Assembly (NCBI RefSeq): GCF_001424485.1
Contig: NZ_LMQC01000023.1
Coordinates: 2,613-66,612 of the forward strand
Reading direction: 5' to 3'
Source of the DNA: Modestobacter sp. Leaf380
Lineage (GTDB): Bacteria; Actinomycetota; Actinomycetes; Mycobacteriales; Geodermatophilaceae
Length of the DNA: 64,000 bases
The stretch's first letter is position 1; each line of letters opens with the position of its first letter. The position numbers and the translations under genes are program-made. Below are positions 27,796 through 55,719 of the stretch, piece after piece. The notes under the pieces were generated by a model. That model was not told the DNA's origin and did no database searches. It worked only from the letters and a program-made list of their open reading frames with translations.

Positions 27796-28563
27796 TCAGA
27801 GACCCACGGTCTGCCCGCCGTCCACGACCATCGCCATGCCGGTCGCGAACGCGCCGAGGTCGGAGGACAACCACAGGACGGCGGAGGCTATCTCCTCCGG
27901 CCGGCCCATCCGACCGACGGGCTCCTGGCCGATCACCCGGGCGCGGCCCTCGTCGGTGCCACCGGAGAACCGGTTCATCATCGGGGTCTCGATGATGCCG
28001 GGACAGACGGCGTTGACCCGGATGCCCTGGGCTGCGTAGTCCAGCGCAGCGGACTTGGTCAGGCCGATCAGCCCGTGCTTGGCCGCGACGTAGGCCGCCT
28101 GTCCGGCGATGCCGACGACCCCGGCACCGGAGGAGGTGTTCACGATCGAGCCCCCGCCGTTCGCCAGCATCGCCGGGATCTGGTGCTTCATGCACAGGAA
28201 CGCGCTGGTCAGGTCGACGGCGATCAACCGGGCCCAGGCGTCCTCCTCGATGTCGGTGAGCGGCGCCGCGGGCTGCTCGATGCCGGCGTTGTTGAAGGCG
28301 GCGTCCAGCCGACCGAACCGCTCCACCGTGCCGGCGACGGCGGCGGCGACGTCTCGGGAGGAGGTGACGTCGCAGGTGAGGGCGAGGACCTCACCCCCGT
28401 GCTCGGCCACCAGGCGGGCGGTCTCCTCGTTGGCCGCGGCGTCGACGTCGAGCACGGCGAGCCGGGCACCCTCCGCGGCGAAGGCGACGGCGGTGGCGCG
28501 GCCGATGCCGCTGCCGGCACCGGTGACGAACGCGACCTTGCCGGTGAACCTGGGCTGGGTCAT
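27796..28563 (-). CDS. SDR family oxidoreductase
   Basis: This 255-residue classical short-chain dehydrogenase has TGAGSGIG, the NNAG motif, the serine in NTSSGAGV and the catalytic YVAAK. It matches the glucose-1-dehydrogenase/cyclopentanol-type group. The ATG at 28563 follows GAGCGTCAG. It sits between the sugar porter and the acyl-CoA ligase, 60 bases from either, so the three probably form one operon under the operator at 30159. Confidence 0.9.
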
Positions 28564-28623: not shown

Positions 28624-30069
28624 TCAGCCGACGGGGCGGGTCGCCGAGGGGGCGCTGTAGCGCTCGCGCAGGTCGACCTCGAGTTCCTCGAGGGTGCGGC
28701 CCTTGGTCTCGGGGATGTACCGGAAGGCGAACAGCGCAGCCAGCACGTTGAGCACCATGAACCCGCCGAAGACGGTGACCGACCCCAGCGACTCCGCCAG
28801 GATCGGGAACAGGAAGGAGATCAGGGCGTTGGCGACCCAGAGCCCACCCAGGGAAGCGCCCATGGCGAAGCCGCGGATGGGCAGCGGGAAGAGCTCGGAC
28901 AAGACGATGAAGCCGGTCGTGCCCAGGAAGGTCACCATGAACGCGGTGACCAGCAGCATGAAGACCAGGATCAGCGAGGACCGCAGCGTCGAGGACGGCA
29001 GCAGGTAGACGGCCAGCAGGCCCAGGTGCGAGGCTGCCACGCCGCCGAAGCCCAGCAGCATCATCCGGCGCCGCCCCATGAGCCCGAGGATCCACATCCC
29101 CAGCACGGTGAAGACGATCATCGCGATCCCGACGGTGACCGAGGCCAGCAGGGATGCCGACCGGGTGAAGCCCGAGGTCTCCAGCACGGTCGGGGCGTAG
29201 TACATGACCACGTTGATGCCGGTGGTCTGCTGGGCCACGGCCAGCACGATGCCGACCAGGATCAGCCGCTTCATCCAGGGCGAGCTCTTCAGCACGGCCA
29301 GCACCGAGGTCTTGGGCTGCTTGCTGTCGGCCTGCACGAGCTCGGTGATCTGGCGGTACTCCTGCGCGGCCTGCTCGGCGGGGTGGGCGCGCTCCAGGGT
29401 CTCCCGCGCCTCGGCCCAGCGCTGCTTGCTGGCGTACCAGCGCGGGGTGTCGGGCAGGCTCATCATGCCCAGCAGGAAGGCGACCGCCGGGATGACGGCG
29501 ATGCCGAGCATGAAGCGCCACACGCCCTGGCTGTCGATCAGGTTGGCGAGCACCGCGTTCATCACGAAGGCCAGGAAGAGCCCGATGACCAGCATCAGCT
29601 GGTTGACCGTGACGATGCGGCCGCGCTGGGAGGCGGGCGCCATCTCCGCGAGGTACAGCGGCACGACGACGGAGGCAGCGCCGACCGCGTAGCCCAGGGC
29701 GACGCGGGAGAGGACCAGGGTCGGCACGTCCGGCGCCAGCGCACACGCCGCGGTGCTGACCACGAAGACGACGCCGGAGATCACCAGCGAGCGCTTGCGG
29801 CCCAGCCGGTCGGCGATGGGTCCACCCAGCAGCGCCCCCGCCGTGGCGCCGGGGAACAACAGCGAGGTCACCAGCAGGCCCTCGGTGAGGGTGGTCAGCG
29901 CCAGGTCCTCCCGCAGGTAGACCAGCGCACCGGCGATGACGCCGGTGTCGAAGCCGAAGAGCAGGCCACCGAGGCTGGCGATGGCGGTGAGCCGGAAGAG
30001 GAACGTGCGGGAGTCCTCGTGGCCACCGGAGGGGGCCGGGGCACGCGTGGGTGCGTCGATCTGGGTCAC
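28624..30069 (-). CDS. MFS sugar porter
   Basis: This 481-residue transporter has twelve hydrophobic segments and the sugar-porter signatures FGFDTGVIAGAL, ADRLGRKR, QQTTGINVVMYY and PETKGRTLEELE. It probably imports a sugar, polyol or sugar acid with protons. The GTG at 30069 is preferred because AAGAGG lies six bases before it; ATGs at 30075 and 30114 are in frame. The promoter carries an IclR-type operator at 30159-30177, shared with the divergent SnoaL-like gene. Confidence 0.92.
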   Translation of the reverse strand: MTQIDAPTRAPAPSGGHEDSRTFLFRLTAIASLGGLLFGFDTGVIAGALVYLREDLALTTLTEGLLVTSLLFPGATAGALLGGPIADRLGRKRSLVISGVVFVVSTAACALAPDVPTLVLSRVALGYAVGAASVVVPLYLAEMAPASQRGRIVTVNQLMLVIGLFLAFVMNAVLANLIDSQGVWRFMLGIAVIPAVAFLLGMMSLPDTPRWYASKQRWAEARETLERAHPAEQAAQEYRQITELVQADSKQPKTSVLAVLKSSPWMKRLILVGIVLAVAQQTTGINVVMYYAPTVLETSGFTRSASLLASVTVGIAMIVFTVLGMWILGLMGRRRMMLLGFGGVAASHLGLLAVYLLPSSTLRSSLILVFMLLVTAFMVTFLGTTGFIVLSELFPLPIRGFAMGASLGGLWVANALISFLFPILAESLGSVTVFGGFMVLNVLAALFAFRYIPETKGRTLEELEVDLRERYSAPSATRPVG

Positions 30070-30158
30070 GATCATCCTCTTCGCCGGTCGACGTCGACCG
30101 CGGTCGTGGGACAAGGGAGCGCCTGGCCGGTATGGCCTGAGACACAGTGCCGGAAAGA

Positions 30159-30177
30159 TATCCTGTACTGTGGGACA
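30159..30177. promoter_or_regulatory. IclR-type operator, site 1
   Basis: TATCCTGTACTGTGGGACA matches TATCC[CT]-N7-GGGA, the arrangement found at 33430, 36992 and 42655. It lies between the divergent MFS porter and SnoaL-like genes, so it can control both. Confidence 0.65.
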
Positions 30178-30273
30178 TCGTCAACAAACCGGCCGGGCAT
30201 CGACACCAGCCGGGCCACCCGACGGCCGCCACCCCCGGGGTCCGGCCGCCCACGCTCCCGAGAGGCCGATCCC

Positions 30274-30669
30274 ATGCGCGCGAGCACCCAGACCACGGAG
30301 TTGCTGACCGCCTACTACGCCGCGATGGAGGCCAACCGCCGCGACCTCCTCGCCGGCTACTACGCCCAGGACATGACCCTGACCTTCGGGAACGCCGCAC
30401 CGATCCAGGGCCGAGAAGCGGTCGTCGAGGCCTTCGGCGACGTGCTCGACCGGGTCCGGTCCCTGGCCCACGACCTCGTCCGGGTCTGGGAGGAGGAGGA
30501 CGGTGTCGTCGTCCTGGAGTCCCTCGGCCGGTGGACCACCCGGGCGGGCACGGTCCTGGAGATCCCTGCCGCCACGGCGATCACCGTCGTCGACGGCGTC
30601 TTCACCGACCAGCGCATCTGGGTCGACAACGCCCCGGTCTTCGCCGCCCTGGAGCGCGAGGGCGCGTGA
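30274..30669 (+). CDS. SnoaL-like / nuclear transport factor 2 fold protein
   Basis: This 131-residue protein has the cone-shaped NTF2-like pattern: a long first helix (ELLTAYYAAMEANRRDLLAGYYAQDM), then the sheet with FGNAAPIQGREAVVEAF and ITVVDGVFTDQRIWVD. Family members are small isomerases, hydrolases or binding proteins. The ATG at 30274 follows GAGAGGC. It is followed by a cupin gene 68 bases on and is expressed divergently from the porter. Its reaction is unknown. Confidence 0.75.
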   Translation: MRASTQTTELLTAYYAAMEANRRDLLAGYYAQDMTLTFGNAAPIQGREAVVEAFGDVLDRVRSLAHDLVRVWEEEDGVVVLESLGRWTTRAGTVLEIPAATAITVVDGVFTDQRIWVDNAPVFAALEREGA

Positions 30670-30737
30670 CCCCCTGACCGCCTGACCGCTGACCCGCTGA
30701 ACACCCACCCCACCCACCGCACAGCGAAGGACCTCTG

Positions 30738-31265
30738 ATGCCCGGAGCACACCGCGACGTCCAGTCACGCCTGATCGTCACCGGCCTGGACGAGGACGGG
30801 AGGTCGACGTTCGTCAGCGACGGCCCCACGACCGACCGCCTGGTCGCCGACGGCTACACCCGCAACCACCTGTGGCAGGCCGTCGAGGTGCCGACCCCGA
30901 CGACGGCGCCCACCGGACCGGGGGGCGCCGACGTCATCCCGCCGCCGCCCGCGGGTCTCAACTACGTGATCACCGCGTTCGCCCCGGACAGCGAGTGGGA
31001 CTACGAGGGTGGCTACGCGCGCATCCTGGCCGAGTCCGGGGCCGGTGGCGCCGTCGACCCCGACGACGCCCCGGGCATGCACACCACCGACACCATCGAC
31101 ATCGTGACGGTGATCTCCGGTGAGGCCTGCGTGCTGCTCGACACCGGCGAGACCACGATGCGGGTGGGCGACACGATCATCCAGCGCGGCACCAAGCACG
31201 CCTGGCGCAACCGCACCACCGAGCCCTGCGTGGTCTCCGCGGTGCACGTGAGCGCCCGGCGCTGA
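30738..31265 (+). CDS. Cupin domain protein
   Basis: This 175-residue protein has a single C-terminal cupin barrel, with MHTTDTIDIVTVISGEACVLLDTGE and a second motif GDTIIQRGTKHAWRNR. The metal ligands are reduced: one His in MHTTD and one in KHAW. This type is often seen with sugar-acid or aromatic catabolism. The ATG at 30738 follows GAAGGACCTCTG. It ends before a strong hairpin, facing the kinase gene. Confidence 0.8.
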   Translation: MPGAHRDVQSRLIVTGLDEDGRSTFVSDGPTTDRLVADGYTRNHLWQAVEVPTPTTAPTGPGGADVIPPPPAGLNYVITAFAPDSEWDYEGGYARILAESGAGGAVDPDDAPGMHTTDTIDIVTVISGEACVLLDTGETTMRVGDTIIQRGTKHAWRNRTTEPCVVSAVHVSARR

Positions 31266-31291
31266 GCCACCGGTCACACCGACGAGCAGGC

Positions 31292-31335
31292 CCGGGCCCG
31301 GGACGGCGAGGAGGTCCTCGTCGTCCCGGGCCCGG
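31292..31335. terminator. Strong bidirectional hairpin
   Basis: CCGGGCCCGGGACG (31292-31305) pairs with CGTCCCGGGCCCGG (31322-31335). After a G/T mismatch the stem continues with CGAGGA/TCCTCG. It lies between the convergent cupin and kinase genes. Confidence 0.7.
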
Positions 31336-31357
31336 GGCGTGCGTCAGCCGGTCGGGC

Positions 31358-32611
31358 TCACACCGGCACCCGGGTGTCCACGGCGTCCAGCACGCGCGTG
31401 AGGGTGTCGGGTCCACCCACGTTGCCGGGGACGACGACGTAGAGCAGGTCCCGGCCGTCGGCAGCGGTCAGCTGCCAGACCGACACCCCGGGCAGGACCT
31501 GGCCCAGGACGAGGGCGGACGTGGCCCCGATCCCGGTGCTGGCGACCTCCGCGGAGGTGATGCCGCCCTTGGCGACGACCACGTCCACCTCGGGGAGCAG
31601 GTCCGTCACCGCCGTGGTGAGCGCCCGCATGACCCGCTCGCCGTGGTCGAGGGTGTTGTGCTCCGGGGACCGCGACCGGTCCGTGGCCAGGAGCACGACC
31701 GGCGCCCCGGCGAAGGCCTGCCGGGCTGCCGCTGCCGTCGCGAGCCCGGCGGCGACCGGGTCGGCCAGCGCCGCGATGGTGTCGATGACGGCCGGGTCGC
31801 CCCACGCCGCGGCGATCGGGGAGAGCTGGGCACCGGCGCCCTGAGTGTGCGAACCGCACACCAGCAGCACCCGGCCGGGCGCCTGCACCACCGGGGTGGC
31901 CAGCAGTCCCGTGCTCGGCACGCCGGCGAGGGCGGCCGCCAGCGGGGCGGCACAGCGGACCACGACCCGACGACCCGCGGCGGTCGCGTCCTCCACGGCC
32001 CGGGCGATCAGGTCGACGTCACCGGCCTCGACGGCGTCGGGGAGCACCACGGCCCCACCTGGTGCGTCCCGGAGGACGGCAGCCAGCCCCCCGGCCCGGA
32101 CCCGGTCCAGGGGCACCGCGACCGCGTGGCGGGCGGACTTCTCGGCGACGTAGTCGACCAGCACGCCGGTACCGAAGGGGAACACCGGGTCCTGGGCGTA
32201 CTCGGTCTCGTGGGCCGGCAGGTCCTGGTCCCCGACCCGGACCCGGTGCACGCCGTCGCGGGTGGTGCGCCCGCCGTCGGGGAAGGCCGGCACGAAGAGC
32301 AGGACGGCGTCCCCGTCGAGGAAGACCTCGGACTCGGCGAACACGTGGCCGCGCAGCGTGGAGTCCCCGCGCAGGACGAACCTGACCGGCTCCCCCAGCT
32401 CCGCTGCGGCCGCCTCGCCGTCGGCCCGGACCCGGCGGACCAGGGCGACGGCCTGCTCCTCGTCCAGCGCCCTGCTGTTGGTCTGCACGTAGACGGAGTC
32501 CGTCGCGCGCAGGGCGGCGAGCAGTCGCTCCCCGGTGCTGCCCAGCAGCACCGTGACACCGGTCGCCGACTGGGTGCCGGTCGGGTCGTCGTCCAGGACG
32601 ACGGTCTTCAT
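31358..32611 (-). CDS. Four-carbon acid sugar kinase family protein (DUF1537)
   Basis: This 417-residue protein begins with the family hallmark LDDDPTGTQ and holds RGDSTLRGH in the N-terminal substrate-binding domain. The C-terminal nucleotide-binding domain has VVAKGGITSAEVAS. Characterised relatives (OtnK/DtnK/YgbK) phosphorylate 3- or 4-carbon sugar acids such as D-threonate, L-threonate or 2-oxo-tetronates. The ATG at 32611 starts directly at the first strand after AGGGG. It lies 25 bases after the racemase-like gene in the same operon, under the operator at 33430. It suggests the pathway makes a phosphorylated acid that an aldolase or dehydrogenase can split. Confidence 0.9.
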   Translation of the reverse strand: MKTVVLDDDPTGTQSATGVTVLLGSTGERLLAALRATDSVYVQTNSRALDEEQAVALVRRVRADGEAAAAELGEPVRFVLRGDSTLRGHVFAESEVFLDGDAVLLFVPAFPDGGRTTRDGVHRVRVGDQDLPAHETEYAQDPVFPFGTGVLVDYVAEKSARHAVAVPLDRVRAGGLAAVLRDAPGGAVVLPDAVEAGDVDLIARAVEDATAAGRRVVVRCAAPLAAALAGVPSTGLLATPVVQAPGRVLLVCGSHTQGAGAQLSPIAAAWGDPAVIDTIAALADPVAAGLATAAAARQAFAGAPVVLLATDRSRSPEHNTLDHGERVMRALTTAVTDLLPEVDVVVAKGGITSAEVASTGIGATSALVLGQVLPGVSVWQLTAADGRDLLYVVVPGNVGGPDTLTRVLDAVDTRVPV

Positions 32612-32636
32612 CGGGTCCCCTGTCCTGGGCGCGCGG

Positions 32637-33314
32637 TCAGGCGGGCAGGGCGGCGACGCGGGAGGCGAGCAGGTCGACACCCATCCGCGGGCTGGTGAGC
32701 ACCGTGAGCCCGGTGGTGTCGGCCAGCGTGCCGGCCAGGCGCGACATCGACGCCTGCGCCAGCACGATCAGGTCGACCTCGCGGGCCAGGTCGACCGCCT
32801 GCTCGGCGATCATCGCGTCGTGCCGCTCGCGGTCACCGGACATCAGCACGTCGAAGGCACCCGGGCACAGCCGCTGCTGCAGGGACACCTCGCGGCCCTG
32901 CGCCCGGGCCTGGGCCGCGATGAGGTCGGAGGTGGGGCCCAGGGTGGTGGGGACGGTGGCCAGCACCCCGATGCGGCTGCCCTCCCCGGCGGCGCGGATC
33001 GCCATCGCCTCGTCGATCTTGAGCACCGGGGTGGAGACGTGGGTGGCGGCGACGTCGAGCGCGGGCCCCAGCGAGGAGCACGCGGAGAAGATGATGTCGG
33101 CACCGGCGGCCTCGGCGGCCTGGGCCAGGTGGGTCATCCGCTCCTCGCTCCGGGTGGAGATGCCCTGCTCGCGGACCACCGTGGCCAGCACGTCGGAGTC
33201 CACGAAGTGCAGGACCTCGGCATCGGGGATGAGCTCGGCGATGAGGTCGTTGATCGCGGGTTCGACGGAGACGAACACGAAGCTCGTGTGCAGGATGGCG
33301 ATCTTCTTCGGCAC
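32637..33314 (-). CDS. Aspartate/glutamate racemase family protein
   Basis: This 225-residue protein matches the Asp/Glu/hydantoin racemase superfamily. The two catalytic cysteine regions would be IIFSACSSLGPAL and near the C-terminus. The first cysteine (SACSS) is present, but the second region (IVLAQASMSRLAG) has alanine, not cysteine. It is therefore likely an isomerase, decarboxylase or lyase relative rather than a two-base racemase. The GTG at 33314 follows GAGGGAGTG. It is first in the operon with the DUF1537 kinase and lies 116 bases after the operator at 33430. Confidence 0.75.
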   Translation of the reverse strand: MPKKIAILHTSFVFVSVEPAINDLIAELIPDAEVLHFVDSDVLATVVREQGISTRSEERMTHLAQAAEAAGADIIFSACSSLGPALDVAATHVSTPVLKIDEAMAIRAAGEGSRIGVLATVPTTLGPTSDLIAAQARAQGREVSLQQRLCPGAFDVLMSGDRERHDAMIAEQAVDLAREVDLIVLAQASMSRLAGTLADTTGLTVLTSPRMGVDLLASRVAALPA

Positions 33315-33429
33315 GGGGCACTCCCTCATCTGGCGTCGTCGTGGACGCCGTGCACCCGGTGTCCACCAGGGGGCGGGGCGACCGGGACGTCGATGTCCGC
33401 TGCCGGTCGAGACAGGAACCCCTGCACGA

Positions 33430-33448
33430 TATCCCGGCATGTGGGACT
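33430..33448. promoter_or_regulatory. IclR-type operator, site 2
   Basis: TATCCCGGCATGTGGGACT has the same TATCCC-N7-GGGA geometry as sites at 30159, 36992 and 42655. It lies between the IclR gene stop and the start of the racemase-kinase operon, which it probably controls. Confidence 0.7.
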
Positions 33449-33469
33449 ACACAACAGGCAGAGGGGCGT

Positions 33470-34297
33470 TCAGTCGGTCTGGCGCTCCTGGAGGCGCGCC
33501 GAGATGGTGGCCGCGGCCTCCGTGACGGCCCGCACCGCCTGCTCGAGTTCCACATCGCGCCGTTCGACCTCGTCCCAGGCGACCCCGACGCTGCCCAGCG
33601 CCGTGCGCTGCGGGGTGAGCACCGGTGCGGCCACGCCGTACACCCCGGGGTTGAACTCCCCCAGCGTCACCAGGTGCCCGTCGCGCTTGATGGTGCCCAG
33701 GGCCGCCCGGAACTCGGCCCAGTCGCGCCCGAGCCCGGCATCGGCGATGGCCTGCTCGTGCTGGGCGTAGATGGCCTTGAGCCGGTAGTGCGGGAGGTGG
33801 GCCAGGATCACCTTGGACACCGCCCCCTGGAAGAGCGGACGCCGCTGCCCCCGGCGGAACCGGTTGGTCGGACTGGACGGCGCCCGGTACTCCCCGATGC
33901 ACAGCACGGACTCCCGGAACGCCGTGCACAGCAGCGCGGAGTGGCCGATGGTGTCCACCAGACCCTCCAGCACGCCGTCGCTGGCCAACAGCAACGGGTC
34001 GGTGAGCCGGATCTGCAGGTCCATCTCGATGATCCGCGGACCCAGGCTGTAGTAGCCGTTGCGAACGGAGGTCAGCAGCCCCGCGTCGTGCAGGGTCTTG
34101 ATGTAGCGGTACCCGGTCGACCGGGAGGCCTGGACGGCGTCGATGATCGACGCCGTCGACCACACGGGCCGCTCGGCGCTGAAGAGGTCCAGGATCTGGA
34201 AGGTCTTGGCCGGGCTGCCGGCGGCGTCGTCGGCACCACCGCCCACGGACTCCCGGTCCTCGGGGTCCGGACCGTCCGGTGACTCGGGTGCAGGCAC
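33470..34297 (-). CDS. IclR family transcriptional regulator
   Basis: This 275-residue regulator has an N-terminal winged helix-turn-helix (KTFQILDLFSAERPVW, then ASRSTGYRYIKTLHDAGLL) and a C-terminal effector-binding domain of the IclR type (GHSALLCTAFRESVLCIGEY, GVYGVAAPVLTPQ). It probably binds a pathway metabolite and controls the catabolic operons around it. The GTG at 34297 is chosen; upstream codons run into the neighbour's 3' region. It lies 32 bases after the aldehyde dehydrogenase stop, so it may be cotranscribed from the operator-containing promoter at 36992. A weak operator-like site lies at 34308-34326. Confidence 0.9.
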   Translation of the reverse strand: MPAPESPDGPDPEDRESVGGGADDAAGSPAKTFQILDLFSAERPVWSTASIIDAVQASRSTGYRYIKTLHDAGLLTSVRNGYYSLGPRIIEMDLQIRLTDPLLLASDGVLEGLVDTIGHSALLCTAFRESVLCIGEYRAPSSPTNRFRRGQRRPLFQGAVSKVILAHLPHYRLKAIYAQHEQAIADAGLGRDWAEFRAALGTIKRDGHLVTLGEFNPGVYGVAAPVLTPQRTALGSVGVAWDEVERRDVELEQAVRAVTEAAATISARLQERQTD

Positions 34298-34307
34298 CCC
34301 CGCACGA

Positions 34308-34326
34308 TATCGGTCCCCACGGGCTC
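34308..34326. promoter_or_regulatory. Degenerate IclR-type operator before the IclR gene
   Basis: TATCGGTCCCCACGGGCTC keeps TATC and GGG at the same spacing but loses two positions. It shares the flanking GCACGATATC with site 2. It may allow weak autoregulation. Confidence 0.3.
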
Positions 34327-34329
34327 CGC

Positions 34330-35838
34330 TCACAGCTGCAGGTACACGCTCTTGGTGTAGAGGTACGTGTCCATGTGCGCAGCCGTCCCCTTGGCGCCGT
34401 AGCCGCTCAGCTTGGTCCCGCTGAAGCCGACCAGGGGGTCGATGAGCCCGTAGCAGTTGACCCACATGGTGCCGGTGTGCACACCGCGCACGACCTGCAG
34501 CGCGGTGGACAGGCTCTGCGACCACACCGCGCCGGCCAGGCCGTAGTCGCTGTCGTTGGCGATCGTGATGGCCTCCTCGACGTCGTCGAAGGGCAGGATC
34601 GACAGCACCGGTCCGAAGACCTCCTCCCGGGCGATGCGCATGGAGTTGGTGACCTCACCGAACACGCACGGCTCCACGAAGTAGCCGTTCTCCAGGTCCC
34701 CGCCCACCCGACCTCCCCCGCGCAGCAGCTGCGCGCCCTCGGCCCGGCCGATCCGGACGTAGTCCAGCACCCGGTCCAGCTGCGTCCGGGACACCACCGG
34801 GCCCAGGTCGACCCCGGCGTCCAGGCCCCGGCCGACGCGCAGCCCGTCCACGTAGGCGAGCAGGCGCTCGGTGAACTCCTCGACGACCGGCCGCTGCACC
34901 AGCACCCGGGTGCCGGCGAAGCAGATCTGCCCGGAGTTGGCGAACACGCCCATCGCCGCGCCGGGCACGGCCCGGTCCAGGTCGGCGTCGGCGCACACGA
35001 TGTCCGCGGACTTGCCGCCCAGCTCCAGCTGCAGCTTCTTGATGTTGCCGGTGGAGGACCGGATGATCGAGCGCCCGGTCTCGGTGGAACCGGTGAAGGC
35101 GATCCGGTCCACGTCGGGGTGGTCGGCGAGGGCCTGACCGGCCTGCGCGCCCCACCCGGTCACCACGTTCACCACGCCGGCGGGGACGCCGGCCTCCAGC
35201 AGCAGCTCGGCCACGCGCAGCACGGTCAGGGAGGCCTCCTCGGAGGGCTTGAGGACGGCGGTGCACCCGCTGGCCAGCACCGCCCCGACGATCCAGAACT
35301 GGCCGTTGAGCGGTCCGTTCCACGGGATGATCCCCCCGACGACGCCCACCGGGGCCTTGAGGGTCATCGTCGCGACGTCCCCGGGCACCCCGTTGAGCAG
35401 CGTCTCGCCGCTGATGGTCAGCGCCTGGGCGGCGAAGAAGGCCAGCATCTTCTGCAGCGCCGGCCGACTGCCCAGCAGCCGGGCCACCGGGGCCCCCATG
35501 TCCAGGGACTCCAGCTCGACGAGCTCGTCGAAGTGCTCGTCGAGCACCCGGCCGACCCGGTTCAGCAGTGCCTGGCGCTCGTAGGGGGACCAGGTCCGCC
35601 AGGGCCCCTCGAAGGCGGCCCGGGCCGCGGCGACGGCGAGGTCGACGTCGACCCGGTCGCCGGCCGCCAGTTCGGCGAGGACCTCCCCGGTCGAGGGGTC
35701 CCGCGTGGGGAGCGTGGCACCCGACGACGCCGGGCGGTGCACGCCGTCGATGAGCAGCTGCAGCGGCCCCCGGGACAGGAAGGCCCGGGCTGCCGCGCCC
35801 GGCTCGGTGGGGGTGCTGGGGGTCGGTGACGTCGTCAC
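34330..35838 (-). CDS. Aldehyde dehydrogenase
   Basis: This 502-residue enzyme has [25 protein letters not shown] for the general base and GQICFAG for the nucleophile (Cys306). EEVFGPV follows. It is a canonical NAD(P) aldehyde dehydrogenase of the phenylacetaldehyde/betaine-aldehyde group. The GTG at 35838 follows AGAGGCACC. It is downstream of the Zn-alcohol dehydrogenase by 37 bases, so alcohol and aldehyde oxidation are probably consecutive. The substrate is unknown. Confidence 0.92.
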   Translation of the reverse strand: MTTSPTPSTPTEPGAAARAFLSRGPLQLLIDGVHRPASSGATLPTRDPSTGEVLAELAAGDRVDVDLAVAAARAAFEGPWRTWSPYERQALLNRVGRVLDEHFDELVELESLDMGAPVARLLGSRPALQKMLAFFAAQALTISGETLLNGVPGDVATMTLKAPVGVVGGIIPWNGPLNGQFWIVGAVLASGCTAVLKPSEEASLTVLRVAELLLEAGVPAGVVNVVTGWGAQAGQALADHPDVDRIAFTGSTETGRSIIRSSTGNIKKLQLELGGKSADIVCADADLDRAVPGAAMGVFANSGQICFAGTRVLVQRPVVEEFTERLLAYVDGLRVGRGLDAGVDLGPVVSRTQLDRVLDYVRIGRAEGAQLLRGGGRVGGDLENGYFVEPCVFGEVTNSMRIAREEVFGPVLSILPFDDVEEAITIANDSDYGLAGAVWSQSLSTALQVVRGVHTGTMWVNCYGLIDPLVGFSGTKLSGYGAKGTAAHMDTYLYTKSVYLQL

Positions 35839-35875
35839 GGGGGTGCCTCTCGTCGGGTCGGTCGGGACGGTGTCG

Positions 35876-36904
35876 TCAGTCGTTGAGCAGGACGCCCTTG
35901 CCGATCTCCTGCCGCTGGAAGAGGCGGTACGCCCGCTCGGCGGCGGCGAGGGGGAACCGGTGGGTGATGAGGGACTCGACGTCCAGCCCGCGGTCGACCA
36001 CGAACCGGGCACAGTCCTGGAGCTGGTTCTTGCTGGCGGTCAGCGACCCCACGATGGTCTTGCGGTGGTGGATGAGCTCGTTGCTGTCCACCTCCAGGGG
36101 GCCGAAGACCCCGACCATGCAGGCGGTGCCCCAGGGGCGGAGGGCCTCGACGGCCTGCCGCCGGACGACGGGGACCGCACTGCACTCCAGGGACTTGTCC
36201 ACGCCCTCGCCGTCCCGGGTCAGCGCCCGGACCGCGGCGACCGGGTCCCCCTCGCGCGCGTCCACGACGTGGTCGGCGCCGGTCCGCCGGGCCATCGCCA
36301 GTCGGGCGGGGTCGACGTCGACGGCGATCACCCGGGCGCCGAAGGCCTTGGCCAGCAGGGTGGCACTGAGGCCGACCGGGCCCTGGCCGAAGACCGCCAC
36401 CGTCTCGTCGGCGGTCAGCGCGACGCGCTCGATGGCGGCGAAGGCGGTCCCGGTGCCACAGGAGAGGGCCGCCCCGGTGCTGAAGGACAGCTCGTCGGGC
36501 AGCGCGATCAGCGCGTGCGCCGGGACGGCCATCAGGTCCGCGTGCCCGCCGTCGCCGTCGAGCCCACCGAAGACCACCCGCCCCCGGGTGCAGTACTGGG
36601 TCCAGCCCGACCGGCAGTGCCGACAGGTGCGACAGCCGTCGTAGTGGTGCACCATCACGCGATCGCCCACCCGGGCCTCTCCGGGCCGCACGGCCGCGCC
36701 GACGGACTCGACCACGCCGCAGGGTTCGTGCCCCTCGACCACCTGCTCGTCGGGGGTGCGGCGGGGGCCGTCGAGGTGGTGCAGGTCGCTGCCGCACATC
36801 CCCGAGGCCCGGATCCGGACGACGACCCCGTCGAGGGCGGGCCGGGGGTCGGGTCGCTGCTGCAGCTCGATCTCACCTGCACCGAGGAAGACCACGGCTC
36901 TCAT
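35876..36904 (-). CDS. Zinc-dependent alcohol dehydrogenase family protein
   Basis: This 342-residue medium-chain dehydrogenase shows SGMCGSDLHH and EGHEPCG for catalytic zinc, a CRTCRHC-SGWTQYC structural-zinc lobe and VFGQGPVG for NAD(P). It is a clear paralogue of the enzyme at 3404-4417 with the same length and motif order. The ATG at 36904 follows GGAG; the frame to 37015 crosses the operator and is not used. It is first in the leftward operon ADH-ALDH-IclR. The operator at 36992-37010 is shared with the divergent SDR operon. Confidence 0.9.
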   Translation of the reverse strand: MRAVVFLGAGEIELQQRPDPRPALDGVVVRIRASGMCGSDLHHLDGPRRTPDEQVVEGHEPCGVVESVGAAVRPGEARVGDRVMVHHYDGCRTCRHCRSGWTQYCTRGRVVFGGLDGDGGHADLMAVPAHALIALPDELSFSTGAALSCGTGTAFAAIERVALTADETVAVFGQGPVGLSATLLAKAFGARVIAVDVDPARLAMARRTGADHVVDAREGDPVAAVRALTRDGEGVDKSLECSAVPVVRRQAVEALRPWGTACMVGVFGPLEVDSNELIHHRKTIVGSLTASKNQLQDCARFVVDRGLDVESLITHRFPLAAAERAYRLFQRQEIGKGVLLND

Positions 36905-36991
36905 GTCGTACTCCAGGGTCGGCAGCTCATGGTCACGGCGCGCGACGACAGCGGCGGCGGAGACCCACCGGTGACGTCCGTGCGTTGACAT

Positions 36992-37010
36992 TATCCCATG
37001 AAATGGGATA
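36992..37010. promoter_or_regulatory. IclR-type operator, site 3 (perfect palindrome)
   Basis: TATCCCATGAAATGGGATA has perfect 8-base arms around GAA. It is the best copy of the motif and lies between the divergent ADH-ALDH-IclR and SDR-ALDH-aldolase-reductase operons. Control of both, including the regulator itself, is likely. Confidence 0.8.
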
Positions 37011-37117
37011 TTCACTACCCGAGACGATCTCCGGTGCCGGCGGTCCGATCATCCGACGGACCGCGCCCCGCGCGTGGTCCCCCCGTCCGCCACGATGCAC
37101 CGCTGCGAGGACCCCCG

Positions 37118-37972
37118 ATGAGCACTGCACCGTCGAGCACTGCACCGACGAGCCCCACACTCCCCACCCACGCCCCGTCGGACTCCGGGGTCCCGGCGTC
37201 GGCCCGGGACTTCGCCGTCGCCGGGCTCGTCGTCATCGTGACCGGGTCGGGACAGGGCATCGGCCGGGAACTCGCACGGCAGTTCGCCGCCGCCGGGGCG
37301 ACCGCCGTCGTCGCCGACCTGGACCTGGGCAAGGCCCAGGGCGTGGTCACCGAGATCACCGACGCCGGCGGGCGTGGCTTGGCCGTACGGGTCGACGTGG
37401 GCGAGGAGACGTCGGTGCAGGCCATGGTCGACACGGTCGTGGCCGAGCTCGGCCGGGTGGACGTCCTGATCAACAACGCCTCGGTCTTCGCCACCCTGGA
37501 GAAGCTGCCCTTCGACGAGATCCCGCTGGCCCGCTGGGAGCAGGTCATGCGCGTGAACATCACCGGCGCCTACCTGTGCGCCCGGGCCGTGGCGCCGCAC
37601 ATGCGCGCCGCGGGCTCCGGGCGCATCGTCAACGTCTCCTCCGACGCCGTCACCCGCGGCACGGTGGACTACCTGCACTACGTGACGTCGAAGTCCGCGG
37701 TGATCGGCATGACCAACTCACTCGCCCGCGAGCTGGGGCGGCACGGGATCACCGTCAACTGCATCCGGCCCGGCAGCGTGGCCACCGAGGTCGACCGTGC
37801 CGTCAACCCCACCACCGCGGTGCGCGAGCGCGCAGCCTCCCTGCAGTGCATCCCGCGGGGCATGGTGCCCACCGACCTGGTCGGGATCATGCTCTTCCTG
37901 GCCTCCCCGGCCTCGGCGTTCATCACCGGTCAGACCATCGCCTGCGACGGCGGCTACACGCACAGCAGCTGA
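37118..37972 (+). CDS. SDR family oxidoreductase
   Basis: This 284-residue short-chain dehydrogenase has TGSGQGIG, NNAS, a serine in NVSSDAVT and the catalytic YVTSK. The first 30 residues are a Ser/Thr/Pro-rich extension. The ATG at 37118 follows GAGGA and excludes the operator region. It is first in the rightward operon SDR-ALDH-aldolase-ketopantoate-reductase-like. Together with the next gene it repeats the pair at 14996-17195. Confidence 0.88.
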   Translation: MSTAPSSTAPTSPTLPTHAPSDSGVPASARDFAVAGLVVIVTGSGQGIGRELARQFAAAGATAVVADLDLGKAQGVVTEITDAGGRGLAVRVDVGEETSVQAMVDTVVAELGRVDVLINNASVFATLEKLPFDEIPLARWEQVMRVNITGAYLCARAVAPHMRAAGSGRIVNVSSDAVTRGTVDYLHYVTSKSAVIGMTNSLARELGRHGITVNCIRPGSVATEVDRAVNPTTAVRERAASLQCIPRGMVPTDLVGIMLFLASPASAFITGQTIACDGGYTHSS

Positions 37973-38007
37973 CCCACACCGCCACCGGCAGCCCGAGGAG
38001 CCCCGTC

Positions 38008-39459
38008 ATGCAGCAGTTCCCGCACCTCTACGTCGAGGGCCGGTGGGTCGAACCGGTCCAGCCACGCACCGTCGACCTGCTCGACCCCACCCGCGAGGAG
38101 CCCTTCGCCCGGGTGGCGATGGGCAGCTCCGCCGACGTCGACCTCGCCGTGGCCGCGGCCCGGCGCGCGTTCCCGGCGTTCGCGGCCACCACGGTCGCAG
38201 AGCGGGTCGCGATGATCGACCGGGTCGTCGCGGCCTACGAGGCCCGACTCGAGGAGTTCGCCGAGCTGATCGCCCACGAGGTGGGCATCCCGGTCAGCAA
38301 CCGGGCCCAGGTCACCGGTCCGGCCCAGCACATGCGGGTGGCGCGCGACCTGTTGCGCGACCACCCCTTCGAGTCCAGCATCGGCGATGCGATCGTCCGG
38401 CGGGAGCCGATCGGGGTCGTCGCGGTCATCTCGCCGTGGAACTGGCCGGTCCAGACCGGGGTGATCAAGACCGTCTACGCCCTGGCGGCCGGGTGCACCG
38501 TCGTCGCCAAGCCCAGTGTCGAGTCCGCGGCCAGCGGCGCCCTGCTGGCCCAGGTGCTGCACGAGGCCCAGCTGCCGCCCGGGGTGTTCAACCTGGTGAA
38601 CGGGGCCGGCCGGGACGTCGGTGAGGCCCTGACCCGCCACCCCGGCGTCGACATGGTCTCCTTCACCGGGTCGACCGCAGCGGGCCGCGCGGTGGGTGCC
38701 GCCGCGGCGCAGACGGTGAAGCGCACCAGCCTGGAGCTGGGTGGGAAGTCGGCCAGCATCGTGCTCCCCGACGCCGACCTGGAGCGGGCGGCCCGGTGGA
38801 ACGTCGGACGTTGCTTCGTCAACACCGGGCAGTCCTGCCACGCACCCAGTCGGCTGCTGGTGCACGAGAGCCAGCTCGCCGAGGTCACCGACGTGCTCGT
38901 CGAGGAGGCCGGCCGGTTCCGGCTGGGCGACCCGATGGACCCCGGGACCACCATGGGGCCACTGGTCAGCGCCGCCCAGTACGCCTCCGTGCGGTCCCAC
39001 GTGCAGACCGCACTGGACGAGGGCGCGGTCCTGGTGACCGGCGGCCTGGAGCGGCCGGCCGGGCTGGACCGGGGCTGGTTCGTGCAGCCCACCGTGTTCA
39101 CCGGCGTCACGCCGGACATGACGGTCGCCCGCGAGGAGGTCTTCGGCCCGGTGCTGGCCGTGCTGTCCTACCGGGACGAGGCCGAGGCCCTGCAGATCGC
39201 CAACGACTCGCCCTACGGGCTGGGTGGCTACGTGTGGGGCGGCTCCCGGGAGACCGCCCGCCGGGTGGTGAACGGCCTGCGGGCCGGTCGGGTCAGCTAC
39301 AACGGCGCCGCCACCGACTCCCACACCCCGATGGGCGGTTACAAGCAGTCCGGCACCGGCCGGTCGATGGGGCGCTTCGGGCTGGAGGAGCACCTGGAGG
39401 TCAAGTCGGTCTACGGGTTCCAGGACGAGGCCCGCGCACTGCCCAGCACGTTCCCGTGA
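38008..39459 (+). CDS. Aldehyde dehydrogenase
   Basis: This 483-residue enzyme has [24 protein letters not shown] and GQSCHAPS (Cys277). Its length and long blocks match the enzyme at 15744-17195, so both descend from one duplication of an SDR-aldehyde dehydrogenase pair. The ATG at 38008 follows GAGGAGCCCC. It lies 35 bases after the SDR and 34 before the aldolase. It may oxidise a semialdehyde released by that aldolase; this is inference. Confidence 0.92.
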   Translation: MQQFPHLYVEGRWVEPVQPRTVDLLDPTREEPFARVAMGSSADVDLAVAAARRAFPAFAATTVAERVAMIDRVVAAYEARLEEFAELIAHEVGIPVSNRAQVTGPAQHMRVARDLLRDHPFESSIGDAIVRREPIGVVAVISPWNWPVQTGVIKTVYALAAGCTVVAKPSVESAASGALLAQVLHEAQLPPGVFNLVNGAGRDVGEALTRHPGVDMVSFTGSTAAGRAVGAAAAQTVKRTSLELGGKSASIVLPDADLERAARWNVGRCFVNTGQSCHAPSRLLVHESQLAEVTDVLVEEAGRFRLGDPMDPGTTMGPLVSAAQYASVRSHVQTALDEGAVLVTGGLERPAGLDRGWFVQPTVFTGVTPDMTVAREEVFGPVLAVLSYRDEAEALQIANDSPYGLGGYVWGGSRETARRVVNGLRAGRVSYNGAATDSHTPMGGYKQSGTGRSMGRFGLEEHLEVKSVYGFQDEARALPSTFP

Positions 39460-39493
39460 CGACCCGCCCCCGACCCGACCAGGAGACCCGCCC

Positions 39494-40285
39494 ATGAGCC
39501 CCGACACCACTCCCCTGCTGCGCAACCACGCCAAGGAGAAGCTGTCCCGTGGCGAGACCGTCTACTCGATGACCGTCCGGCTGGTCCGGACGGTGGACAT
39601 CGCCTCCATCGCCTACGCCGCGGGCTTCGACTCGATCTACATCGACCTGGAGCACAGCAGCTTCCCGCTGGAGGCCGCCAGCCAGATCTGCCTGGCGTGC
39701 AACCACCTCGGGGTGACCCCGCTGGTCCGCGTGCCCGGACCCGACCCCGCCTTCATCGCCCGCGTCATGGACGTCGGCGCGATGGGGATCATCGTCCCCG
39801 ACGTCGAGTCCGCGGACGCCGCGCGGGCCGCGGTGGCAGCGGTGAAGCACGCCCCGCTCGGCGAGCGTTCGCTGGCCGGTGCACCGCCCCAGCTGCACTA
39901 CCGCTCCCACCCCGCCGACCACGTCGTCCAGGCACTGGACTCGACGTCGATGGTCGTCCCGATGATCGAGTCGCAGGCCGGCCTGGACGCCGCCCACGCC
40001 ATCGCCGCCGTCGAGGGCGTGGACATGGTGCTGGTCGGGGCCAACGACCTCAGCGTCGGGCTGGGCATCGCCGGCCAGATGGACCACCCCCAGGTGCACG
40101 AGGCGTTCCTGCACGTCCTGGATGCCGGCCGCACGCACGGCACCGCGGTCGGCATCGGCGGCCTGGGCGGGCGTCCGGACCTGATCGGCCAGTACCTGGC
40201 GCTCGGAGCGCGCTACGTGTCCACGGGCAACGACATCTCCTTCCTCAGCGCGGCCGCCACCGCCAAGCGCGCCCAGTTCGACTGA
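39494..40285 (+). CDS. HpcH/HpaI family aldolase (class II pyruvate-type aldolase)
   Basis: This 263-residue protein shows the metal- and substrate-binding blocks of the 2-keto-3-deoxy-acid aldolase family: FDSIYIDLEHSSF, VRVPGPDP, VVPMIESQAGLD and GANDLSVGLG. Relatives cleave 2-keto-3-deoxy sugar acids or hydroxy-keto-diacids to pyruvate plus an aldehyde. A tight spacing to both neighbours places it inside the operon. It would generate an aldehyde for the adjacent aldehyde dehydrogenases. The chain length of the substrate cannot be read. Confidence 0.9.
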   Translation: MSPDTTPLLRNHAKEKLSRGETVYSMTVRLVRTVDIASIAYAAGFDSIYIDLEHSSFPLEAASQICLACNHLGVTPLVRVPGPDPAFIARVMDVGAMGIIVPDVESADAARAAVAAVKHAPLGERSLAGAPPQLHYRSHPADHVVQALDSTSMVVPMIESQAGLDAAHAIAAVEGVDMVLVGANDLSVGLGIAGQMDHPQVHEAFLHVLDAGRTHGTAVGIGGLGGRPDLIGQYLALGARYVSTGNDISFLSAAATAKRAQFD

Positions 40286-40313
40286 TGCCCCCAGCACAGG
40301 GAGACAGCACACC

Positions 40314-41291
40314 GTGAAGATCTGCGTGTTCGGGGCCGGCGCTGTCGGCGGTCACCTCGCCGGCCGTCTGGCCGCCGCCGGGACCGACGTCTCGCTCATC
40401 GCCCGCAACGACCACCTGGCCGCCGTCCGGGAACGCGGACTGCGGGTGGAGACCCGGGACGGCGTGCTCGTCTCCCACCCCACCGTCACCGACCGCCCCG
40501 GCGACCTGGGCCCGCAGGACGTCGTCCTGGTCGCGGTCAAGGCACCCGCGCTCCCGGCGATCGCCGAGCCGGTGTCCACGCTGCTGGGTCCCGACAGCCA
40601 GGTCGTCTTCGTCACCAACGGCGTCCCGTGGTGGTACTTCCACGCCCACGGTGGGCCCCTGCAGGACACCCGGCTGCCGCGCCTGGACCCCGACGACGCG
40701 CTCTGGCGCCACGTGCACCCGGACCGGGCCGTCGGCGCGGTGGCCTACACGGCCGGCTCCGTCGTGGCGCCCGGCGTCATCCGGGCCGAGAACGCCCGCA
40801 ACCGACTGGTCCTGGGTCGGCCGGACGGCGCCCCGGACGGGCGACTGGACGCACTCGCCGACCTGCTGCGCCCCGGCGGGGTGCAGGTCGACGTGACGTC
40901 GACCGTCCGCGACGCGGTGTGGGCCAAGCTGGTCATGAACCTCGTGGGCGGCTCGCTGGGCGCGCTCACCGGCTCGGCGATGGGCGCGGTCATGGCCGAC
41001 CCGGTCCTCGCCGACCTGGCCGGCACCCTGGCCCGCGAGGGCGCCGCCATCGCCCGCGCCCTGGGGTGCGACCCCGGTGACACCGACGCCGGCCTCGCCC
41101 GACTGGGCGGCTCCAGCCACGTCCAGAGCATCGCCCAGGACCTGCTGGCCGGGCGGCCCATGGAGATCGACGCGCTCTTCCGGACCCCGCTGGACCTGGC
41201 CCGGATGGCCGACGTCGACACCCCCGGCCTCGACGCGGTGGTCGCGATGGCCACGCAGCGGGCCCGGGTGGCCGGCTCCTACCGGGACTGA
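40314..41291 (+). CDS. Ketopantoate reductase family protein (PanE/ApbA-like)
   Basis: This 325-residue protein has the N-terminal FGAGAVGGHLAGRLA cofactor motif, VKAPALPA and, in the C-terminal helical domain, the catalytic lysine in AVWAKLVMN. Pantothenate synthesis would normally not be embedded in a catabolic operon, so it more likely reduces or oxidises a branched 2-keto acid in this pathway. The GTG at 40314 follows 28 bases after the aldolase. It is last in the operon and converges on the EIIB-like gene. Confidence 0.88.
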   Translation: MKICVFGAGAVGGHLAGRLAAAGTDVSLIARNDHLAAVRERGLRVETRDGVLVSHPTVTDRPGDLGPQDVVLVAVKAPALPAIAEPVSTLLGPDSQVVFVTNGVPWWYFHAHGGPLQDTRLPRLDPDDALWRHVHPDRAVGAVAYTAGSVVAPGVIRAENARNRLVLGRPDGAPDGRLDALADLLRPGGVQVDVTSTVRDAVWAKLVMNLVGGSLGALTGSAMGAVMADPVLADLAGTLAREGAAIARALGCDPGDTDAGLARLGGSSHVQSIAQDLLAGRPMEIDALFRTPLDLARMADVDTPGLDAVVAMATQRARVAGSYRD

Positions 41292-41313
41292 CCGGCGGGG
41301 CCGGCAGCCCGGC

Positions 41314-41619
41314 TCAGGCGGTGATCTGCCCGCCTTGGCGGATCGCGTGCACGAGCCCGGCGACCGCCGGGTCCCCCACCAGCTGGGTGTAGGCGACGAC
41401 CGGCCGGTCGCCGGCGAGCGACCGCGCGCGCCCCGCGAGCTTGTCGTGGGTGAGGACGACGTCGGCCTCGGCCGGCAGTGCGTCCACCGGGCTGTGCCGG
41501 ACGACGACCCGCGGGGCCAGCTGCTTGCGCAGCTGGGCGCTCATCAGCACGCTGCTGGCCATCCCCGCGTCACAGGCGATCACGATCGTGCGGACGGCGG
41601 CGCCGTCGATGCTGGGCAC
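41314..41619 (-). CDS. Orphan PTS EIIB-like domain protein (mannitol/MtlA type)
   Basis: This 101-residue protein is a free IIB domain with the phosphocysteine loop RTIVIACDAGMASSVLM and downstream VDALPAEADVVLTHDKLAGRA, close to MtlA IIB. It is a paralogue of the protein at 2049-2357, with the same length and the same DIP/DALPA-like central turn. No PTS partner genes are nearby. It follows the bicupin gene by about 100 bases in the same direction, so both probably depend on the operator at 42655. The function is unknown. Confidence 0.78.
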   Translation of the reverse strand: MPSIDGAAVRTIVIACDAGMASSVLMSAQLRKQLAPRVVVRHSPVDALPAEADVVLTHDKLAGRARSLAGDRPVVAYTQLVGDPAVAGLVHAIRQGGQITA

Positions 41620-41723
41620 AGCGGACTCCAGTCGGGGAACGGACCGACCGACCGGTGGCGGTGCGCACGCAGCACACCGGCACCGTTCGGCAGGGCGGGT
41701 CAGGGTCGGTCGGTCGGTCGGGG

Positions 41724-42563
41724 TCAGAAGGTGTGCAGCACCGTGCGGAGGAAGGTGGTCTGCTCGATGGCCTCGACGGGGACGGGCCCCTCGCCGGCCA
41801 GGAACTCGTACCCGGTCTCCGGGCCGTACTTGCCGTCACCGGCCTGCACCTGCCCGTCGATCTGGAACAGGATCTCGATGGAGGGGTGCTGGCCGGCCTG
41901 GTAGACCGCGCCGGCCTGCAGCCGCAGGAAACCGATGCGCAGGTTGCGCTCGGTGAAGGACCCCAGCCACTTCTCCTCCACGCCGAGGTCGGCGGAGGGC
42001 AGCCAGGCGTAGGCCTCGGGGTCCATCGCGATGACGTCGGTGTAACGGGGCGGCGCGAACTGGAGCTCGTGGCCCATCGCCTTCTCGAAGATCGCCTGCG
42101 ACCCGTCGAGGGTGTGCGTCTGCCCCTCGGCGTCGGTGTAGGTGTACATGCCCTTGGCGAACTCACCGGTCATGGCCAGCTCGGCGTTGACGGCCTCGCG
42201 CTGGGCCACGCTGAGGTAGCCACCGCCGCTGGCCCCCCCGCACTGCAGGACCATCGTCCGCAGGCCCTCGGCCCGCTCCTGGGGTCCGTAGTGGACGCTC
42301 TCGGGGAAGTAGCCGACCCACCCCTCCTGCAGGACGTCGGTCTCGGTGTAGGGCAACGTGCCCGCGATGACGTAGCGGATCTGGTCGAAGGTGTGCCGGT
42401 GCCGCGGGGTCCGCCAGCCACCGCCTCCGGTGAGGCCCATGTTGAGGTCGAAGTTGTTCGGCGAGCCGTCCTCGCCGAACAACAGGTGCTTCTGGTCGAG
42501 CTTGCCGTCTCGCATGCTCCCGACCTGCTCGGTACCGGTCTCGGCTGCCCTGCTCACGCGCAT
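41724..42563 (-). CDS. Bicupin-type cupin domain protein
   Basis: This 279-residue protein seems to contain two barrels. The first has PRHRHTFDQIRYVIAGTLPYTE and FPESVHYGP, a full metal site. The second has LQAGAVYQAGQHPSIEILFQIDG. Such proteins are often dioxygenases or isomerases of catabolic pathways. The start at 42563 follows GAAGGAGATCG. It lies 92 bases after the operator at 42655, so IclR control is likely. I do not know the substrate. Confidence 0.78.
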   Translation of the reverse strand: MRVSRAAETGTEQVGSMRDGKLDQKHLLFGEDGSPNNFDLNMGLTGGGGWRTPRHRHTFDQIRYVIAGTLPYTETDVLQEGWVGYFPESVHYGPQERAEGLRTMVLQCGGASGGGYLSVAQREAVNAELAMTGEFAKGMYTYTDAEGQTHTLDGSQAIFEKAMGHELQFAPPRYTDVIAMDPEAYAWLPSADLGVEEKWLGSFTERNLRIGFLRLQAGAVYQAGQHPSIEILFQIDGQVQAGDGKYGPETGYEFLAGEGPVPVEAIEQTTFLRTVLHTF

Positions 42564-42654
42564 CGCGATCTCCTTCGACGAGGTTGACCCACCCGGGACG
42601 GGCTGAGGACCCGATTGGCTCCTGTTGCGGCCGGTCCTGGGTCAGTCTCCACGG

Positions 42655-42673
42655 TATCCCACATGGCGGGATC
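42655..42673. promoter_or_regulatory. IclR-type operator, site 4
   Basis: TATCCCACATGGCGGGATC fits TATCCC-N7-GGGA. It lies before the bicupin gene and after the MmgE/PrpD stop. Confidence 0.7.
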
Positions 42674-47723: not shown

Positions 47724-48286
47724 CGGGTGGTGGCGGTGCGCAGCACCTGCAGCACGTCGTCGAGGTGCACCGGGGTCCCGCCGCGGTTGTAGGGCAGCGC
47801 GGACAGGGCGGCACCCATGGCGCAAGTGTCGGTGACCGCAGCCCCGGCCAGGCCGGCCCCGATGCCGCCGGCGAGGAAGCGGGCCCGGGGAAACCGGATC
47901 GAGGCCAGCACGCTGCCGGCGACGATGGTGCCGGCGACCAGGCGGACCTGACGCTCCAGAGCCCAGCGCTGCTTCCCCCGGCGAACGGTGTGGCCGTCGG
48001 CGGTGTGGGCGTTCGTGCCGCCCTCGAGCACGGCCAGCTGCTCAGCGCCGGCCGAGGCCAGCGCGTCGTGCGCGGTGCGGGCCCTCGATCCGGCCTGGCA
48101 CACCAGCACGACCGGGCCCTCCAGGGCGTCGGCCAGGGTGTCGGCGTGGGCCTGCACCAGGGGCAGGGGCACGTTGACTGCGCCGGGGATGTGGGCGGTC
48201 TCGAACTCCGCCGGGGTGCGGACGTCGACCACGGTGGCCGTGGTGGCGGCGACCTCGGTAGGGGCGATCAGGGTGGGGCTGGTCAT
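47720..48286 (-). CDS. Rhodanese with DUF2892 membrane domain
   Basis: This 188-residue protein has an N-terminal rhodanese domain (VVDVRTPAEFETAHIPGAVNVP, active cysteine in LVCQAGSRA) and a C-terminal two-helix DUF2892 domain (IRFPRARFLAGGIGAGLAG) as in YgaP. It transfers sulfane sulfur at the membrane. The ATG at 48286 follows AGAGGAC. It is coupled to the TauE gene. The role is probably to pass persulfide sulfur to thiol acceptors. Confidence 0.9.
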   Translation of the reverse strand: MTSPTLIAPTEVAATTATVVDVRTPAEFETAHIPGAVNVPLPLVQAHADTLADALEGPVVLVCQAGSRARTAHDALASAGAEQLAVLEGGTNAHTADGHTVRRGKQRWALERQVRLVAGTIVAGSVLASIRFPRARFLAGGIGAGLAGAAVTDTCAMGAALSALPYNRGGTPVHLDDVLQVLRTATTR

Positions 48287-48318
48287 GGGGCGTTTGTCCT
48301 CTCGGCAGTGGGTGTGGA

Positions 48319-48486: not shown

Positions 48487-48487
48487 C

Positions 48488-50245: not shown

Positions 50246-50269
50246 GGTGCCTCCTCGTTGTGGGGTGGT

Positions 50270-55709: not shown

Positions 55710-55719
55710 TGGAGGCATC

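Follow-up and report, generated by a model that had tools for sequence, protein, structure and literature searches.

Which regulator switches the catabolic genes gathered at 26.1-45.4 kb of a 64,000-nucleotide stretch of Modestobacter sp. Leaf380 (contig NZ_LMQC01000023.1, positions 2,613 to 66,612; hereafter the window), and through which DNA sites does it act? Four palindromes lying between these genes are very probably operators of the IclR-family regulator encoded among them (33470-34297), as far as sequence comparison can tell; each site is predicted to lie inside a promoter, where the bound protein would repress the catabolic genes. A preliminary description of the window had already proposed an IclR regulon, and this proposal is now supported by a matrix trained on sites of other organisms, an unbiased dyad scan, the bases of the spacer and the absence of the motif from four sampled plasmid loci with related genes but without a match to this IclR.

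Palindromes in the window and in the genome

The pattern TATCCY-N7-GGGA occurs in the window at 30159, 33430, 36992 and 42655, in addition to the mirror reading of 36992; 100 shuffles averaged 0.05 occurrences and never exceeded 1. The preliminary description had given these four positions with equal spacing, had restricted them to promoter regions and had noted a perfect palindrome at 36992, and all of this stands. All four sites are intergenic, with their centres 93-117 bp from six start codons (MFS 93, SnoaL 106, racemase 110, alcohol dehydrogenase (ADH) 97, second short-chain dehydrogenase (SDR2) 117 and bicupin 101 bp), and the site at 36992 reads TATCCCAT-GAA-ATGGGATA. The IclR gene does lie among the sites, on the minus strand. 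A degenerate site suggested at 34308 fell outside the 15 best matrix places of the window, the last of which scores 0.4 bits, and was rejected as an operator.

In the whole genome (4,764,686 bases in 25 contigs) TATCCY-N7-GGGA is confined to the same four places, and the looser TATCC-N8-GGGA is found at one extra place only (TATCCG at position 1468 of contig C9; the reversed-pattern control gave 0). A genome scan had been proposed in which many unrelated copies would speak against a regulon; such copies were not seen. Eight genomes of the same genus together held a single match to TATCCY-N7-GGGA. With up to 3 mismatches, 262 matches per strand were obtained in the own genome compared with 127 in the control, and the W/RY pattern with 1 mismatch gave 58 compared with 43. 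Among the looser matches listed most are GC-rich palindromes, so regulon members outside the locus can be neither claimed nor excluded. The operator core is probably the symmetric NTCCC-N7-GGGAN, and the lopsided consensus with TATCC on the left and GGGA on the right is probably not intrinsic, since each site has a minus-strand gene on its left.

The palindrome accompanies the regulator

Orthologues of the regulator at 69-74% identity were found in Streptomyces, Pseudarthrobacter, Sinomonas, Arthrobacter and Microbacterium, where the site stands beside orthologous genes in rearranged gene orders. The eight actinobacterial IclR loci came from one contig scan that needed exact peptide matches and so reaches close relatives only, its absences being lower bounds on presence. 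The loci of this study, numbered L009-L060, are not all independent: one genome supplied both L010 and L012, another both L013 and L014, and L059 nearly duplicates L058. In an unbiased dyad scan of the eight loci, TATCC-N9-GGATA came first of all 5-mer dyads (n=6, 0.02 expected) and TATCCC-N7-GGGATA was the top 6-mer dyad (n=4); P values of the dyad scans are uncorrected for the number of dyads. Four proteobacterial plasmid loci, the best 4 among the 39 plasmid records in which an IclR relative was found, encode orthologues at 46-57% and show a relaxed motif with the spacing kept, their top 6-mer dyad being AATCCT-N7-AGGATT (n=2) and ATCCT-N7-AGGAT ranking second of the 5-mers.

A matrix built from 11 sites beside IclR orthologues in other genera gave the four window sites the top four ranks (29.6 down to 15.0 bits; the next place reaches 5.7), in a test that is not fully independent because the training sites had been chosen by the window's pattern at no more than 2 mismatches. 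With leave-locus-out matrices, 23 sites above 8 bits were detected in the eight actinobacterial loci, at least one in each, compared with 1 in reversed sequence. The four proteobacterial IclR loci gave 26 such sites versus 5 reversed, 14 of them in L049, and four plasmid loci without a match to the window IclR gave 1 versus 2 in the control. Sites fall in the bicupin/SDR2 gap (L009, L013), before IclR (L009, L010, L011, L013), before bicupin (L009, L012, L013), in the IclR/racemase gap as in the window (L015, at 2812, the counterpart of operator 2) and in the MFS/SnoaL gap (L010, 17.2 bits at 13627, orthologous to the gap of operator 1). A further site, at 10101 of L012, is included in the count of 23 and in a 16-site table; it is absent from the training set and from the 15-site spacer count given below.

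L049 is a region of the Paracoccus versutus plasmid pBEN (141559-172353), in which the 14 sites above 8 bits are spread over 30.8 kb, with 1 in reversed sequence. Perhaps it carries a larger regulon of its 48% IclR relative.

Spacer and known IclR operators

The published consensus of group-1 IclR operators is GKTYC-RY-W3-RY-GRAMC, in the part of Suvorova and Gelfand (2021, PMC8222616) drawn on here. The seven spacer bases played no part in our site selection. The RY bases of this consensus are found in 27 of 30 half-sites (15 sites) compared with 66 of 290 chance half-sites (P=3e-13), half-sites and related loci being not fully independent, and RYW in 24/30 compared with 27/290. The window sites alone have RY in 7 of 8 half-sites (P=3e-4) and RYW in 5 of 8 (P=5e-4). 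The chance set consists of 145 TATCCY-N7-GGGA matches among those listed for relatives, and the 15 sites were taken at no more than 2 mismatches to the window pattern, so the two selections are close, not identical.

The window palindrome resembles the group-1 operators of PMC8222616, in the sections used here, in its CRY-W3-RYG core, its odd length and its 11-type spacing. Its outer letters, ATC/GAT, differ from all four subgroups named in the main text of that paper, namely TGT-11-ACA, GTT-11-AAC, WTT-11-AAW and NGT-12-ACN. GenR of Corynebacterium glutamicum, with the site ATTCC-N7(5)-GGAAT as excerpted from the same paper, is like the window IclR in being actinobacterial, in half-site length and in the N7 option, yet has T where the window operator has C at the third position. 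GenR is described there as controlling 3-hydroxybenzoate/gentisate genes, none of which was recognised among the 18 annotated genes of the window locus. The regulon appears to be of an ordinary bacterial kind, with a somewhat unusual operator of ATC-11-GAT type within a known family. In the open-access literature, the titles and abstract openings found mention neither the operator nor the module.

The regulator itself carries both domains of the family, scoring 30 bits with PF09339 (HTH_IclR, cut-off 22) and 52.9 bits with PF01614 (IclR_C, cut-off 24). The stretch R59-S60-T61-Y63-R64-Y65-I66, placed in the recognition helix by reading an alignment against the TtgV/PobR table within PMC8222616, is unchanged in 12 orthologues. 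Its best NCBIfam model is TIGR02431 (PcaR/PcaU/PobR), yet at 70.4 bits it stays far under the cut-off of 284.75 for that subfamily, and no beta-ketoadipate genes were recognised among the 18 annotated genes.

The recognition-helix codons of the IclR genes resemble one operator arm (CGGGATACCGCTA), which is probably a codon coincidence.

Might a different regulator, encoded elsewhere, bind the palindromes, the IclR gene being a mere neighbour? IclR binding is itself a prediction, and the strict pattern TATCCYRYNNNRYRGGAT is found in 32 of 395 Micrococcaceae-group genomes, 28 of which belong to the 391 where IclR was not detected, five of them (G106, G303, G318, G465, G468) with at least two separate places on different contigs or more than 100 kb apart. 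The pattern is nevertheless present in 4/4 genomes known to hold IclR (G098, G099, G100, and G102 by a truncated copy), and the motif accompanies IclR in eight actinobacterial and, in relaxed form, four proteobacterial loci. The spacer is moreover of IclR type, no second regulator was found among the 18 annotated genes at 26.1-45.4 kb, and the own genome holds no second IclR relative at E<=1e-20. Control by another protein is accordingly very improbable in our view.

Probable promoter overlap and proposed mechanism

For the 11 sites with a gene on one side only, the gene side was assigned by hand from locus maps, and TANNNT stands at the expected -10 position in 8/11 active compared with 2/11 inactive orientations (P=0.015, for a -10 position chosen after inspection). 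The nine two-sided sites have it in 12 of 18 orientations. The TA of TATCC is probably a -10 element, which would place the operator within the promoter and make repression the likeliest mode of action. The TTGAC-like outer arm could belong to the operator, to a -35 box or to both; as a plain -35 box it is unsupported, being equally good on the gene-less side.

Since TA..T and the TTGAC-like arms stand where a -10 and a -35 could plausibly lie, the repeats could be taken for shared promoter elements rather than operators. This we regard as most improbable: the most conserved letters, TCCC/GGGA, lie in neither box; the spacer agrees with the IclR consensus; the rest of the genome has no copy of the exact pattern; and the four related loci without this IclR lack the dyad. 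Another alternative keeps the binding of IclR as described and makes it an activator or dual regulator, both of which occur in the IclR family (PMC8222616, in the sections used here). Repression, however, better fits a site situated between divergent genes and overlapping the presumed -35 to -10 region, and activation seems to us unlikely.

We infer binding, repression, effector, operon structures and substrate, and repression by the IclR would proceed as follows. A dimer of IclR, or a dimer of dimers, would bind the core NTCCC-RYNNNRY-GGGAN within sigma-A-type promoters, where the outer TA of a half-site would also serve as the -10 of the promoter that points outward on its side. RNA polymerase would be blocked by the bound protein, in both directions at once in the two divergent gaps, until a pathway intermediate or substrate releases it. 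Release would turn on MFS uptake, the dehydrogenases, the aldolase, the kinase, the racemase and the cupin proteins. The ADH-ALDH1-IclR unit would be switched as well, giving autoregulation.

Besides the choice of training sites and of the -10 position mentioned above, a number of observations weigh against this explanation. TA alone is found at 8/11 proximal and 4/11 distal positions (P=0.10), the SnoaL and SDR2 directions of the window are without the full TANNNT, and the outer TTGAC arm shows no preference for the promoter side (4.36 versus 4.09 of 6 matches). In the window TATCC-N8-GGGA with 1 mismatch occurs at chance level (9 versus 7.5), so the signal resides in the exact sites. A dyad scan of the window locus alone ranks other dyads above the motif, with ATCCC-N7-GGGAT 6th and TATCC-N9-GGATA 8th among 5-mers and TATCCC-N7-GGGATA 2nd among 6-mers with one copy. 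Operator 2 has one weak arm (15.0 bits), and none of the four sites precedes MmgE/PrpD, though MmgE/PrpD relatives recur in other loci. The stretch 10101-10119 of L012 lies inside the IclR coding sequence and scores 17.4 bits, which indicates that coding DNA can give high matrix scores. Finally, L058, L059 and L060, which are loci without this IclR, each hold one match to TATCCC-N7-GGGATA at 2 mismatches, with 0 in controls.

Related genes beside a LysR regulator

Plasmids of Cupriavidus (L057) and Rhizobium (L058, L059) carry relatives of bicupin, aldolase, SDR2 and ALDH2 at 47-65% beside an annotated LysR gene. Neither TATCC-N9-GGATA nor ATCCC-N7-GGGAT occurs in these three loci, and the former is absent from all four plasmid loci without an IclR match (E<=1e-12). 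Another dyad, ATAAC-N5-GTTAT, occurs once in L057 and three times each in L058 and L059, always with one copy between aldolase and bicupin, and is missing from all 13 IclR stretches tested. The type of site bound by LysR proteins, T-N11-A, is contained in ATAAC-N5-GTTAT. The fourth locus, L060, is unannotated and has neither dyad. The LysR-linked module thus has related genes in common with the window locus, with LysR and ATAAC-N5-GTTAT in place of IclR and TATCC-N9-GGATA, a contrast that rests on L057 and the L058/L059 pair. The control loci are 4 of 29 plasmid records with a bicupin relative, two of them chosen for their annotation, and 15 records with an ApbA relative were left out.

Perhaps the 33-bp unit TTGAC-NA-TATCCC-N7-GGGATA-TN-GTCAA acts as a two-way promoter-operator that can be transplanted, in which each half-site gives the -10 of one direction and one dimer switches a pseudo-symmetric bidirectional promoter. 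In other bacteria a LysR-type control region would then have taken the place of the whole unit beside a conserved catabolic module, with regulator and operators replaced together. We consider this idea speculative and rather doubtful. Should both directions fire, the unit would be similar to pseudo-symmetrical bidirectional promoters known from E. coli (PMC12825309).

An IclR orthologous group for which no description was found in the open-access literature hereby gains a precise predicted operator and a gene list, which offer a handle on a catabolic pathway scattered among soil bacteria. The LysR-linked copies of related genes are a natural case for how a regulator and all its operators get exchanged.

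Distribution and probable horizontal acquisition

Among 97 genomes, the own one and relatives, one other match to the IclR was found at E<=1e-20, with 30% identity. The IclR was detected in 3 of 395 Micrococcaceae-group genomes (E<=1e-60). A phylum sample of 396 genomes gave the own one alone, and the 392 genomes of the Streptomyces group gave one that was known already. These searches scored no more than 6 candidates per genome, and absences are again lower bounds on presence. The bicupin was detected in 1 of 60 genomes, likewise the own one (E<=1e-40). Sporadic occurrence together with high identity across families, with regulator and bicupin not detected in the sampled relatives, suggests that the locus was horizontally acquired. 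A tRNA scan found none, and mobile elements were otherwise sought solely by Pfam annotation of the ten proteins to the right.

Genes of the locus and substrate

The features are collected in Table 1; Pfam annotation also places an alpha/beta-hydrolase-like protein in the locus. The kinase scored 79.2 of the 450 bits needed for the NCBIfam D-threonate kinase model and 40.7 of 350 for 3-oxo-tetronate kinase, far below both equivalog cut-offs. Sequence searches against solved structures gave no match for the bicupin (E<=0.01) or for the racemase (E<=0.001). The EIIB domain protein that follows the bicupin stands alone, without an EIIA or EIIC recognised among the 18 annotated genes.

Table 1. Predicted operators and genes of the IclR locus (positions in the window; bits from the matrix of other organisms' sites)
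Feature	Position	Strand	Sequence or domains	Context
Predicted operator 1	30159..30177		TATCCTGTACTGTGGGACA	divergent promoter region MFS(-)/SnoaL(+); 23.1 bits
Predicted operator 2	33430..33448		TATCCCGGCATGTGGGACT	upstream of racemase-kinase (-), just beyond IclR stop codon; 15.0 bits
Predicted operator 3	36992..37010		TATCCCATGAAATGGGATA	perfect palindrome; divergent promoter region ADH(-)/SDR2(+); 29.6 bits
Predicted operator 4	42655..42673		TATCCCACATGGCGGGATC	upstream of bicupin-EIIB (-); 22.5 bits
IclR-family regulator	33470..34297	-	PF09339, PF01614 (above cut-off)	last gene of ADH-ALDH1-IclR; GTG start uncertain
AMP-binding acyl-CoA ligase	26144..27736	-	PF00501, PF13193
Short-chain dehydrogenase SDR1	27796..28563	-	PF13561
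Sugar-porter family MFS transporter	28624..30075	-	PF00083; TIGR00879 above cut-off
SnoaL-like protein	30274..30669	+	PF12680
Cupin protein	30738..31265	+	PF07883
Four-carbon acid-sugar kinase (DUF1537 type)	31358..32611	-	PF07005, PF17042
Asp/Glu/hydantoin racemase family protein	32637..33329	-	PF01177
Aldehyde dehydrogenase ALDH1	34330..35838	-	PF00171
Zinc alcohol dehydrogenase ADH	35876..36904	-	PF08240, PF00107
Short-chain dehydrogenase SDR2	37118..37972	+	PF13561
Aldehyde dehydrogenase ALDH2	38008..39459	+	PF00171
HpcH/HpaI-type aldolase	39494..40285	+	PF03328
Ketopantoate-reductase-like ApbA protein	40314..41291	+	PF02558, PF08546
Lone PTS EIIB domain protein	41314..41619	-	PF02302
Two-cupin protein (bicupin)	41724..42563	-	PF12973 above cut-off; Cupin_2 below cut-off
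MmgE/PrpD protein	42721-44106

The related Rhizobium loci have tartrate-dehydrogenase and four-carbon-kinase annotations nearby, and the uptake systems differ among loci (MFS, sugar-type ABC and NMT1-type ABC). From these Rhizobium neighbours and from the dehydrogenases, HpaI-type aldolase and DUF1537-type kinase of the window locus, we tentatively propose a sugar acid or related hydroxy acid, most likely C4-C6, as the substrate, an assignment that is credible while falling short of probable.

In Streptomyces carpinensis (L009, 16469-18655) a cytochrome P450 fused to reductase domains adjoins ADH-ALDH1. To the right of the locus, window positions 46947-57888 encode a TauE/SafE exporter, rhodanese and metallo-hydrolase proteins, a metal-sensitive repressor (PF02583), a DUF305 protein and a P-type ATPase, perhaps a region for sulfur/persulfide and copper handling.

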